Source: Acrocarpospora phusangensis
GTDB taxonomy: Bacteria > Actinomycetota > Actinomycetes > Streptosporangiales > Streptosporangiaceae
NCBI RefSeq assembly: GCF_016862995.1
Contig: NZ_BOOA01000085.1
Span: forward strand, 1-34,232
Reading direction: 5' to 3'
DNA: 34,232 nt
Notes under the pieces: generated by a model
What the model was told of the DNA's origin: nothing
Database searches by the model: none
Seen by the model: the letters and a program-made list of their open reading frames with translations, nothing else
Program-made: the position numbers and the translations under genes
Shown here: positions 8,945 through 11,119 of the stretch, piece after piece
How positions within the stretch are numbered: the first letter of the stretch is position 1
Layout of the letters: each line of letters opens with the position of its first letter

Positions 8945-8974
8945 GGTCCACTCCTGATTTATCGACACCTGCCC

Positions 8975-9007
8975 ATAAAGAAACCCCCCGGCATACAGCA
9001 CGAGGGG
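8975..9007 (-). terminator. intrinsic terminator (attenuator) in the leuS leader
   Basis: In the minus-strand RNA, CCCCUCG (9007-9001) pairs with CGGGGGG (8990-8984) as seven base pairs including one U-G, with a 10-nt loop. UUUCUUUAU (8983-8975) follows directly. A hairpin with a U-tract is rare in this GC-rich window. It sits before the leuS ribosome site and not after a gene, which is the hallmark of an attenuator. Confidence 0.8.
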
Positions 9008-9010
9008 CAG

Positions 9011-9046
9011 CCGCATCGAGGCTTGAGATCAGCTCACTCGATGCGG
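9011..9046 (-). promoter_or_regulatory. leader hairpin 1:2 of the leuS attenuator
   Basis: CCGCATCGAG (minus, 9046-9037) and CTCGATGCGG (9020-9011) form a perfect 10-bp stem. The 5' arm lies within leader-peptide codons 11-14, directly after the Leu codons. The leader stop codon (9031-9029) lies in the loop. The arrangement matches segments 1 and 2 of classical ribosome-mediated attenuators. Confidence 0.75.
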
Positions 9047-9076
9047 CCCGGTAAGGAGCAGGGTCTCCGCACGCAT
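9029..9076 (-). CDS. leuS leader peptide (three consecutive Leu codons)
   Basis: A 15-codon frame, MRAETLLLTGPHRVS, begins with ATG at 9076 and stops with TGA at 9031-9029. Codons 6-8 are CTG CTC CTT, three consecutive leucines, immediately before leuS. The ATG lies exactly 6 nt after a TAGGCT -10 box, so the transcript probably starts at the ATG and is leaderless. Shortage of charged tRNA-Leu would stall a ribosome over the 5' arm of the following hairpin. The codons, stop position, hairpin and terminator are seen in the sequence; the regulatory role is inferred from known leader-peptide attenuators. Confidence 0.75.
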   Translation of the reverse strand: MRAETLLLTGPHRVS

Positions 9077-9082
9077 AGTTCA

Positions 9083-9088
9083 AGCCTA
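9083..9088 (-). promoter_or_regulatory. -10 box for the leuS leader
   Basis: TAGGCT on minus is a good actinobacterial -10 element, 6 nt before the leader-peptide ATG at 9076. No convincing TTGACA-like -35 is seen at 17-18 bp. Confidence 0.55.
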
Positions 9089-9205
9089 GCGCAGTCGGCA
9101 ACCTGATAGCCGATGTTATTGAGGGAGAGGCGATCTTACACGCGGAGTCAACTGCCGATATGCGATGGTGATAGATCCGTTGTGACCGCTGGTGTCCCGT
9201 TCCTC

Positions 9206-9211
9206 TACCCT
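9206..9211 (+). promoter_or_regulatory. -10 box of a leaderless gene
   Basis: TACCCT, a TANNNT box, ends 6 nt before the GTG at 9218. No Shine-Dalgarno precedes that GTG. The spacing is the usual one for leaderless actinobacterial transcripts. Confidence 0.45.
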
Positions 9212-9217
9212 CGTCTC

Positions 9218-11119
9218 GTGGCGTACTCAGGCGAGCCGGGATCGGGCCCGGAATTCCGGCAGACGGACCTTCCGATGCAGGATCCGCCGACCGACCCCAC
9301 GGGTGAGCAGTTCCGGGGGGCTTTCTCGGGTTTCGCTGCGGTGCCCCCCGGGTCGCATGAGATCATGCCAGGCGCCCCCAATTCGGGCATGATCTCGGGA
9401 GGTCCCATGCCCTCGGAGCAGAACGAGTCGCAGCGAGCCGCTGCTCGTGGCGGCTGGCCGGAAATGCCTCCGGCCTGGCCCGAGGTGCCACCGGCCGCCG
9501 GACCGCCTGGCGGCCGTCCGCCGCACGAGCCGCCTCCTTCCGATCCGTACGGCCAGCGGCCGTACCGCACGGGGGAACATCCGGTCCTCCCGCCGCCGAT
9601 CAACGAGTACGACCAGCAGCCCCGGCCCGGCCGCGGCGGCACCGATCCCTTCGGACGCCCGCTCTACCGGGAGCCGCAGCCGGACCCGCGCGAAGCCCCG
9701 CAGTTCCGGGAGCCCCCGCCGTGGGAGTCCCAGCCGCGTGAACCGCAGTTCCGCGACCAGCAGTTCCCCCAGCAACAACCCCCGCAGCCGCACCAGCAGC
9801 CGCATCAGCAGCCACATCAGCAGCCGCATCAGCAGCCACTGCGCGAACAGCCGCGCGACGCCTGGTCGCGCGACCCGGAACCCCCGCCCCACGAACCCTT
9901 CTCGACCGGACCTTTCGGCGTGCCCTCCTTCGATCAGTACGACCAGAACCAGCACCAGAACCAGCACCAGAACCAGCAGGGCCAGCCCCGTCAGGGCAAC
10001 CGCCCCCCGGAGCCCCAGCAGCCCGGCCCCCGCGACCCGCAGCAGTTCGGCGCGATGAGCCCGCAGCAGTTCGGCACCGGCGAGACCCCCCTCTACCGCG
10101 CGGACGCCCCCACCGCGACGCCGCCCGCCCCCGCCGCCGGGCCGTCCAACTTCGCGGGCCCGCAGACCGGCGAGCACGGCGTCCCCCAGTTCCCGATGGC
10201 CGGCCAGCGCCCGCAGCAGCCACCCCAGCAGCAGCCGGCGCAGCATCCGCAGGGCGACGATCCGTACAAGCCGTTCGTGACGGCGGGACAGATCAGCGGG
10301 CCGAAGACGCCGCCCGCGCACCGCCAGCAGGAGCTCTGGAACACCGTCTTCGGCGAGAACTACCAGGCCATCGAGGAGTACGAGGACGAGGAGCGCGGCC
10401 GTCCGATCTGGCTGTTCGCGCTCGCCGGTTCGGTGCTGATCGCGCTGATCGGGGCCCTGCTGTGGGCGTTCCTGGCCGGTCCGCTGGCCGGGGACGGCGC
10501 CGCCTCCCCCGCCGAGACCCCGGCGGCCAAGCCGTCCCCGTCCAAGAACGCCCAGCCGGCGGCGCAGCCCGGCGTGCTGGACTACGAGGGCACGCCGTCC
10601 CCCGTGCAGGGCCGGATCACCGATCAGGAGGCGAACGTCTCGCTGGCGCAGCTCGGCGGCCAGTGGAAGACCGACCTGGACCACCAGAAGAACCTGTCCA
10701 CCTGGGGTTTCGTGACCCGGCAGTTCGTCAGCGCGGGCATGACCACCAAGGGCAAGCCGCAGTTCGCCCAGGTCATGTCGGGCCCGCTCGCCCAGGACCT
10801 GGCGTCCAAGTACACGACCGCCGACGACCTGCGCCCGGTGCTGAGCGCCGTGGTGTACAAGGCCAGGCAGAGCATGTTCCCCAAGGGCAACAAGGCGACC
10901 AGGGTCGGCGGGCAGAAGCTGCGCGGCGGCGTCGGCCAGCTCGCCGCCTACGAGGTGAGCGACGACGGCGGGAAGACCCTCGTGGTGGTGGCCGCGGTGA
11001 ACACCGGCGCGCCGCTGCCGTCGATCGTCTACATGCAGGTGCCCGACATCAAGGACGACCTGCTCCCCGACGTGGGCACCGTGTTCAAGTCCATCAAGGT
11101 GGCCAAGCCCGCCGGCTAG
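9218..11119 (+). CDS. Pro/Gln-rich single-pass membrane protein
   Basis: Function unknown. The 633-residue product has about 400 N-terminal residues rich in Pro, Gln, Arg and Glu, with coding repeats (PHQQ x4; NQHQ x3). One transmembrane helix follows (PIWLFALAGSVLIALIGALL), then a Ser/Pro/Ala linker and an exported C-terminal domain of about 190 residues (from GVLDYEGTPSPVQGRITDQE to the end) without a motif I recognise. The C-terminal part has normal codon bias and looks conserved. GTG 9218 is preferred because upstream codons (TTA TTG AGG) are atypical and a -10 box sits at leaderless spacing; the frame remains open to an ATG at 9113. It diverges from leuS and converges on the P450 operon. 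Confidence 0.8.
   Translation: MAYSGEPGSGPEFRQTDLPMQDPPTDPTGEQFRGAFSGFAAVPPGSHEIMPGAPNSGMISGGPMPSEQNESQRAAARGGWPEMPPAWPEVPPAAGPPGGRPPHEPPPSDPYGQRPYRTGEHPVLPPPINEYDQQPRPGRGGTDPFGRPLYREPQPDPREAPQFREPPPWESQPREPQFRDQQFPQQQPPQPHQQPHQQPHQQPHQQPLREQPRDAWSRDPEPPPHEPFSTGPFGVPSFDQYDQNQHQNQHQNQQGQPRQGNRPPEPQQPGPRDPQQFGAMSPQQFGTGETPLYRADAPTATPPAPAAGPSNFAGPQTGEHGVPQFPMAGQRPQQPPQQQPAQHPQGDDPYKPFVTAGQISGPKTPPAHRQQELWNTVFGENYQAIEEYEDEERGRPIWLFALAGSVLIALIGALLWAFLAGPLAGDGAASPAETPAAKPSPSKNAQPAAQPGVLDYEGTPSPVQGRITDQEANVSLAQLGGQWKTDLDHQKNLSTWGFVTRQFVSAGMTTKGKPQFAQVMSGPLAQDLASKYTTADDLRPVLSAVVYKARQSMFPKGNKATRVGGQKLRGGVGQLAAYEVSDDGGKTLVVVAAVNTGAPLPSIVYMQVPDIKDDLLPDVGTVFKSIKVAKPAG
9784..9840 (+). repeat. 12-bp tandem repeats encoding PHQQ
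   Basis: About four and a half copies of a 12-bp unit (CAGCAGCCGCAT-like) encode PHQQ repeats. A second set (CAGAACCAGCAC, about three copies, 9943-9979) encodes NQHQ. Both are in-frame length-variable candidates in the cytoplasmic region. Confidence 0.8.

Follow-up and report, generated by a model that had tools for sequence, protein, structure and literature searches.

The leader of leuS, the leucine--tRNA ligase gene of Acrocarpospora phusangensis, raises the question of whether leucine supply could control this gene through a short leader peptide and, if so, which RNA structure would oppose termination. The enterobacterial trp, leu and his attenuators combine a leader peptide containing codons for the amino acid with an intrinsic terminator, and both of these parts are shared by the window (the whole stretch of DNA that was analysed, 34,232 nucleotides). 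The first-pass annotation had proposed that leuS is preceded by a leaderless leader peptide containing Leu codons, then a hairpin and a terminator. This layout was confirmed, with all of the leader parts present on the minus strand (Table 1), and the arrangement was borne out in relatives, where its helices covary. The first hairpin (hairpin 1) had been described as a perfect 10-bp stem with the stop codon in the loop. The hairpin is there, and the TGA of the leader ORF falls in its loop, but the stem is 11 bp long, with a stability of -22.8 kcal/mol including the loop. Only 1 of 200 shuffles of the 141-nt leader folds better than the leader itself (z -2.61).

Table 1. Features of the leuS leader, in window coordinates.
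Feature	Position	Strand	Basis and remarks
-10-like box TAGGCT	9088-9083	-	sequence; 6 nt upstream of the ATG
Leader ORF MRAETLLLTGPHRVS, 15 codons and TGA	9076-9029 (ATG at 9076)	-	sequence
Sensing codons CTG CTC CTT	9061-9053	-	CTT starts 8 nt upstream of arm 1
Hairpin 1, 5' arm (arm 1) GCCGCATCGAG	9047-9037	-	fold; covariation
Hairpin 1, 3' arm (arm 2) CTCGATGCGGC	9020-9010	-	fold; covariation; terminator 1 nt downstream
Terminator hairpin, 10 bp and one bulge, -17.2 kcal/mol	9008-8983	-	fold; covariation
U-rich tract TTTCTTTAT	8983-8975	-	sequence
Possible long-range helix, 5' strand GACCCUGCUC, over Leu codons 1-2	9065-9056	-	minimum-energy fold; class-wide test
Possible long-range helix, 3' strand	8974-8964	-	minimum-energy fold; centroid retains 5 pairs
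leuS ribosome site AGGAG	8955-8951	-	sequence
leuS, leucine--tRNA ligase, GTG start	8944-6488	-	TIGR00396 at 945.8 bits (cutoff 548.4)

Because the TAGGCT box sits so close to the leader ATG, the A of this codon or a nucleotide adjacent to it is the predicted start of transcription. The leader ORF should be leaderless, its predicted transcription start lying at its own ATG. A similar spacing between box and ATG is found in the seed leaders described below, for which the search pattern itself required 5-8 nt. A simple promoter scan of the window reported no promoter and no -35 box, and a simple terminator scan of the window did not report the leuS-leader terminator, because its bulge and loop lie outside the pattern of the scan. 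The GTG start of leuS was picked from the position of the ribosome site; the ORF finder starts the gene at an ATG at 9016, within the leader, in which case the terminator would be coding. At around 9160-9190 of the window, the box TCACAACGGATCTATCACCATC lies between the leader and a divergent ORF (9113-11119; this ORF, in the finder's version, includes the box), and many relatives have the same box ahead of leuS.

Conservation was analysed in the leuS upstream regions of named genomes (the best 80 of at least 590) and of further relatives. Among the named seeds, the element is carried by, for example, Thermoactinospora rubra, Streptosporangium saharense, Nonomuraea roseoviolacea, Actinomadura, Microlunatus endophyticus and Arthrobacter, together with MAGs called Marmoricola and Actinophytocola. 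The 77 seed leaders were found via a pattern that demanded Leu-rich ORFs, so that their Leu content is partly circular. After clean-up (L021, L026 and L050 were spurious and dropped, the starts of L004 and L009 were replaced and L146 was shifted), 73 distinct seeds were thinned to 54, from which 39, with L009 trimmed, were chosen for the alignment A1. In this alignment, 93.2% of the cells are paired and both-side changes occur in 11 pairs (66 cells), with covariation measures that were reached by 0 of 500 shuffles; when the partners are slid, the paired cells drop to 41-53%. Both helices, hairpin 1 and the terminator, covary over the class in leaders whose sequences are otherwise very different, and GCCGC, in the lower part of hairpin 1, is almost invariant among the leuS leaders. 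Between the leader ORF and the gene, the covarying stem and the U-rich tract form a predicted intrinsic terminator.

The covariance model R1 was built from the 39 aligned leaders, including that of the window, and it matches the latter at 83.1 bits, with an E value of 4.2e-17 in its own genome that is flattered by this inclusion. R1 matches 232 of the 394 sampled genomes of the class, in 102 of 138 genera (E up to 0.001, with leuS and sister genes pooled). Across the phylum, 24 of 246 genomes are matched, sister-gene matches included, and 13 of them, among which is the window's genome, come from the same class. In the family of the window, 90 leuS upstream regions from 200 genomes (the 30 best matches and 60 spread over genera) comprise 52 strong matches, 7 weaker ones and 31 with none. 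Relatives lacking the Leu codons and the terminator, which the first-pass annotation had named as evidence against the element, are thus found in part of the family, including a genus close to the window (g2), where the element is absent in 14 of 14. At L111, an ATG and one Leu codon are left, with no R1 match. Within the window's own genus, every part is kept in both of the sampled genomes (L082 and L083).

Some further observations concern the surroundings of the element. At the g2 locus L084, a stretch is identical to Microbispora corallina L002, and the window's genome appears close to Microbispora and Nonomuraea. In distant orders, the U-tract gives way to a motif resembling AUGUCCGG (e.g., L187, L183, L023 and L013), and in some leaders the long-range helix has its 3' strand at this position.

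R1 also matches six genomes of the family f20 (L199-L204), at 70.8-76.6 bits, whose leader peptides read MRAVRLLL, then S or T, E or G, and PR. In the available text of the earlier literature, Seliverstov et al. (2005, PMC1262725) predicted "classical candidate attenuators" ahead of the leuS genes of S. avermitilis and S. coelicolor, and the 2021 RNA-seq re-annotation of S. lividans TK24 described LeuL2 (MRAVRLLLSEPR), a leuS leader peptide that is leaderless and accompanied by a hairpin and a U stretch (PMC8079986). Both the kind of element and its gene are therefore already known. The LeuL2 peptide recurs at loci matched by R1, and from this match to the published peptide we infer that f20 is Streptomyces. 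Judged by its sequence, the putative leuS attenuator of the window belongs to this Streptomyces kind, with the same gene, a three-Leu (LLL) leader peptide, which is leaderless in LeuL2 too, a terminator, and helices that fall under one model with those of f20, as far as f20 is rightly taken for Streptomyces. It differs from the Streptomyces version in coming from another order, in having a longer peptide that stops in the loop, and in the shorter loop of hairpin 1; the comparison with the 2005 prediction covers its text. No report of this order's version of the leuS attenuator was found in the literature searched, which covered few subscription papers.

The sensing codons were scored in 138 leaders (124 leuS and 14 cimA), after exclusion of the ilvB and degenerate rows, of rows with a start other than M or V and of rows without a codon at the set distance. 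The codon nearest to hairpin 1 encodes Leu in all of the 124 leuS leaders (CTT in 108 and CTC in 16), the second-nearest does so in 122 and the third-nearest in 106. The conserved Leu codons and covarying stems that the first-pass annotation had suggested seeking by alignment were both found, in a set whose seeds were Leu-selected. Since CTT accounts for just 2 of the 242 Leu codons of five ORFs in the window, a rare codon seems to be favoured at the position where a stalled ribosome would have its effect. The last sensing codon starts 8 nt upstream of arm 1 in 122 of 125 leaders and 5 nt upstream in 3, a spacing that alignment to the model helps to fix, in leuS rows that include two cimA leaders (L282 and L289). 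The position of the leader stop codon is variable: just before arm 1 (LLLT, then stop), inside arm 1 (PR, then stop) or in the loop.

The effect of ribosome position on folding was computed for 140 leaders, with the leading edge of the ribosome assumed to lie 12 nt from the A-site. In the leuS leaders, the mean probability of hairpin 1 drops from 0.83, when the A-site holds the codon preceding the last Leu, to 0.39 when it holds the last Leu itself and part of the hairpin is covered, and to 0.00 when it holds the stop codon. The same three states give 0.53, 0.25 and 0.00 in 12 cimA leaders. On the whole, hairpin 1 would be the structure that reports ribosome position, with the ribosome choosing, in these computations, between two RNA states. 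The terminator averages 0.89, 0.88 and 0.87 over the three states. Hairpin 1 and the terminator coexist in the folding in all ribosome states, without base-pair exclusion, which counts against the attenuator reading proposed below. The terminator falls below 0.8 at the last Leu or at the stop in 15 of the 140 leaders, and L250, L204 and L274 are among those in which it is lower at the stop, the opposite of what this reading expects; in L136 it is 0.16 without any ribosome. Before the 3' arm of the terminator is made, its 5' arm is paired upstream in 24 of 125 leuS rows with the ribosome at the stop, in 14 at the last Leu and in 1 before it. This pairing is commoner at the stop and again counts against the attenuator reading.

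A second kind of pairing concerns the Leu codons themselves. In the minimum-energy fold of the window, the segment over Leu codons 1-2 pairs with a strand that lies directly behind the U-rich tract. Such long-range helices were analysed in 138 rows (121 leuS and 14 cimA), thinned to 97 or 78 and to 13 or 12. A gapped test over 110 nt in the 121 leuS leaders gave no excess (-22.8 vs. -22.8). An ungapped test of the 5' part of the leader against the 45 nt behind the terminator, which was chosen after examples had been seen by eye in the same data, gave an average of -10.06 kcal/mol for the own partner in the 97 thinned leuS leaders, against -8.25 kcal/mol (sd 0.27) for permuted partners, and 0 of 2000 permutations were as stable. 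With the downstream stretch reversed, the value is -8.95 kcal/mol, so composition explains part of the excess. Helices reaching -12 kcal/mol occur in 25 of the 97 leuS leaders, compared with 11.7% of non-cognate pairs; examples are the 10 perfect pairs of L030 and the 9 of L006. The cimA leaders show no cognate long-range helix, with 1610 of 2000 permutations as stable. Where present, the helix may provide a second stage, in which the leader or the ribosome site becomes hidden once read-through has occurred.

Taken together, the -10 box at the leader ATG, the three Leu codons, hairpin 1 abutting the terminator and the covarying helices make it probable that this leader is a ribosome-mediated transcription attenuator, which would raise leuS expression when charged tRNA-Leu is short. 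With ample leucine, the first ribosome would reach the stop codon and cover arm 1, so preventing hairpin 1; the terminator would then form and transcription would end before leuS. With scarce leucine, the ribosome would stall at the Leu codons and leave arm 1 largely free, hairpin 1 would form and counter the terminator, and the RNA polymerase would continue into leuS. Hairpin 1 is best read as the antiterminator because a ribosome at the upstream Leu codons permits it and one at the stop blocks it, and it should oppose termination since starvation should raise leuS.

Such a role for hairpin 1 would match the logic published for ilvB1 of M. tuberculosis. According to the available text on that system, the proposal is that the antiterminator is blocked by a ribosome that has reached the stop codon but can form when the ribosome stalls at LVVI, and the change of LVVI to AAAA abolished induction (PMC13236596). 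The likeness to ilvB1NC, drawn from its description in the same source, lies in the two-hairpin logic with a stop-codon ribosome blocking the antiterminator. The gene is another one, the codons are LVVI and the structures are described as mutually exclusive, whereas the hairpins of the leuS leader abut without overlap. As hairpin 1 and the terminator have no common bases, their exclusion would probably be steric. The pooled leaders (34 + 72 + 60 matches, 165 used) comprise 149 distinct elements, in which hairpin 1 and the terminator are separated by 1 nt (132 elements), 2 nt (13) or 3 nt (4). That the two abut so consistently points to a steric block at the RNA exit channel, where hairpin 1 would stop the neighbouring terminator stem from closing, the least certain step of the proposed mechanism.

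The first-pass annotation had given the two hairpins other parts, those of a classical four-arm attenuator in which the stalled ribosome masks arm 1 and the freed arm 2 pairs with a terminator strand through CCTCG. The order of the parts fits such a scheme, and a CCTCG fold does exist in the window, although it is weaker than its competitor (-14.4 vs. -18.0 kcal/mol). The sensing codons, however, precede arm 1 instead of lying within it as in the enterobacterial trp, leu and his attenuators, and they are too far upstream for masking: given the 8-nt spacing and the 12-nt edge, a ribosome at the last sensing codon covers only about 4 nt of arm 1. Furthermore, when arm 1 is masked, a check that the annotation itself had proposed, the terminator stays at 1.00 in the window and at 0.87 or above in 37 of 39 leaders, which argues against competition by the freed arm 2. 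The two exceptions are L016, where the terminator is 0 even unmasked and which is probably misaligned, and L098, where the terminator is 0.00 with arm 1 masked and 0.01 at the last Leu vs. 1.0 at the stop. L098 favours the four-arm scheme, as does the transient pairing of the terminator 5' arm at the last Leu in 14 of 125 rows. Across the 39 masked leaders and the 140 ribosome-position folds, a classical 2:3 antiterminator is clear only in L098 and appears as a minor fold in the window. None is conserved that would share bases with the terminator, in which respect this leader also departs from the enterobacterial attenuators; the hairpins abut and the terminator persists in most leaders. The four-arm scheme is accordingly improbable here. 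The possibility that the Leu codons pair with the G-rich arm of the terminator was considered by eye only and set aside.

Control might instead, or in addition to attenuation, act after read-through, if the Leu-codon segment paired behind the terminator unless a stalled ribosome prevented it. Besides the fold of the window and the cognate excess of the ungapped test, a precedent is found in the LEU element of actinobacterial leuA, in which, in the source text available, the Leu codons pair with the ribosome site in a pseudoknot (PMC1262725), and whose S. lividans version, as far as the available text goes, has no typical terminator (PMC8079986). The likeness to the LEU element comprises a Leu-codon leader ORF, the same phylum and, in part of the leuS leaders, the long-range helix; its pseudoknot and ribosome-site pairing set it apart, as the Leu codons are not paired with the ribosome site in the window fold, where the helix ends 8 nt before that site. 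With the gapped test showing no excess, part of the ungapped excess due to composition, just a quarter or so of the leuS leaders (25 of 97) at -12 kcal/mol and nothing in the cimA leaders, this route is unlikely. A relic or constitutive leader with a leaky terminator, unregulated in this strain, would agree with the weak or missing versions among relatives, but it is very unlikely given the retention of all parts in L082 and L083 and the class-wide covariation of the helices. Finally, the near-invariant GCCGC could be a binding site in hairpin 1 for LeuS, another protein or a ligand, with the ORF incidental. The sensing codons follow the amino acid of the gene in the sister elements and vary at third positions, which indicates translation, and no Rfam family was found at gathering score in the window, L199, L287, L024 or L311; binding of this kind is the most improbable of these explanations. 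A T-box riboswitch was likewise discarded, as no Rfam family reached its gathering score in the window, and a sub-threshold plant microRNA match (E 1.2) was attributed to chance.

The attenuator reading gains a wider frame from the sister elements, since further R1 matches lie upstream of cimA and ilvB, and the window's genome has leaders at all three genes, leuS, cimA and ilvB. Its cimA leader (L287, G000:C132:1669-1770, minus strand) encodes MTFSLLIIGRRAG and a stop, with Ile codons and two abutting hairpins, and the gene behind it is citramalate synthase (TIGR00977 at 593 bits, cutoff 450). Leaders resembling L287 occur in many genomes of the class. Its ilvB leader (L311, G000:C135), which was read by eye and has no R1 match, encodes MHRSGILVVLRRRAA and a stop, with the run ILVVL, upstream of a TIGR00118 match (acetolactate synthase). 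An apparent hairpin and terminator follow the L311 ORF, upstream of ilvB, as seen by eye and without folding. Ile codons stand at the same place in 14 of 14 scored cimA leaders, so that in both leuS (Leu in 124 of 124, with Leu-selected seeds) and cimA the codons are those for the amino acid of the controlled gene. The Leu, Ile and Ile-Leu-Val leaders of one genome look, in their sequences, like a natural codon swap.

A citramalate synthase motif lies downstream in 21 of 22 cimA-type leaders, and L298 has none in the fetched stretch. These 22 leaders show strong covariation on four of five measures (0 of 500 shuffles), with no excess over shuffles in further pair types (360 of 500). The model R2, built from the cimA-type leaders, matches 217 of 296 class genomes, a count that describes the superfamily and not cimA alone, because R2 also picks up leuS elements. 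Among 38 R2 matches that were read, two of which (L332 and L334) are training sequences, 36 have the citramalate synthase motif downstream; L336 and L338 have none of the four gene motifs, which are our own patterns, and L292 has none of the sought gene motifs downstream. Three R1 matches fall outside the class: L366 upstream of leuS, L368 upstream of a leuA-like gene and L367, which is unassigned. L368 (G600:C182) encodes MSQNLLLT and a stop, an LLL leader of the same design, ahead of a gene that is leuA-like by motif only. No cimA leader or Ile-codon attenuator was found in the accessible text of the literature searched, and the S. lividans leader list, in the part available, names eight leaders, with no cimA among them (PMC8079986).

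It is conceivable, if rather less than probable, that all of these leaders represent a distinct actinobacterial attenuator design, which leuS, cimA and ilvB would have in common with the leuA-like gene of one genome that is more distant. Such a design would join a leaderless sensing peptide to a hairpin that abuts the terminator and crowds the RNA polymerase without sharing bases with it; leuS would add the long-range helix as a second stage, and cimA would be an unreported class-wide Ile switch.

The prediction made in two Streptomyces species now becomes a class-wide element with a covariance model, and the analysis corrects which of the hairpins should be the antiterminator. The natural codon swap in one genome makes the sensing step easy to test, and the conserved abutment without shared bases poses a clean question, namely by what means a hairpin in the RNA can counteract an intrinsic terminator. 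Of the by-products, the predicted class-wide Ile-codon leader of cimA is the most interesting, and such leaders would allow isoleucine control of the citramalate route to be tested across many actinobacteria.
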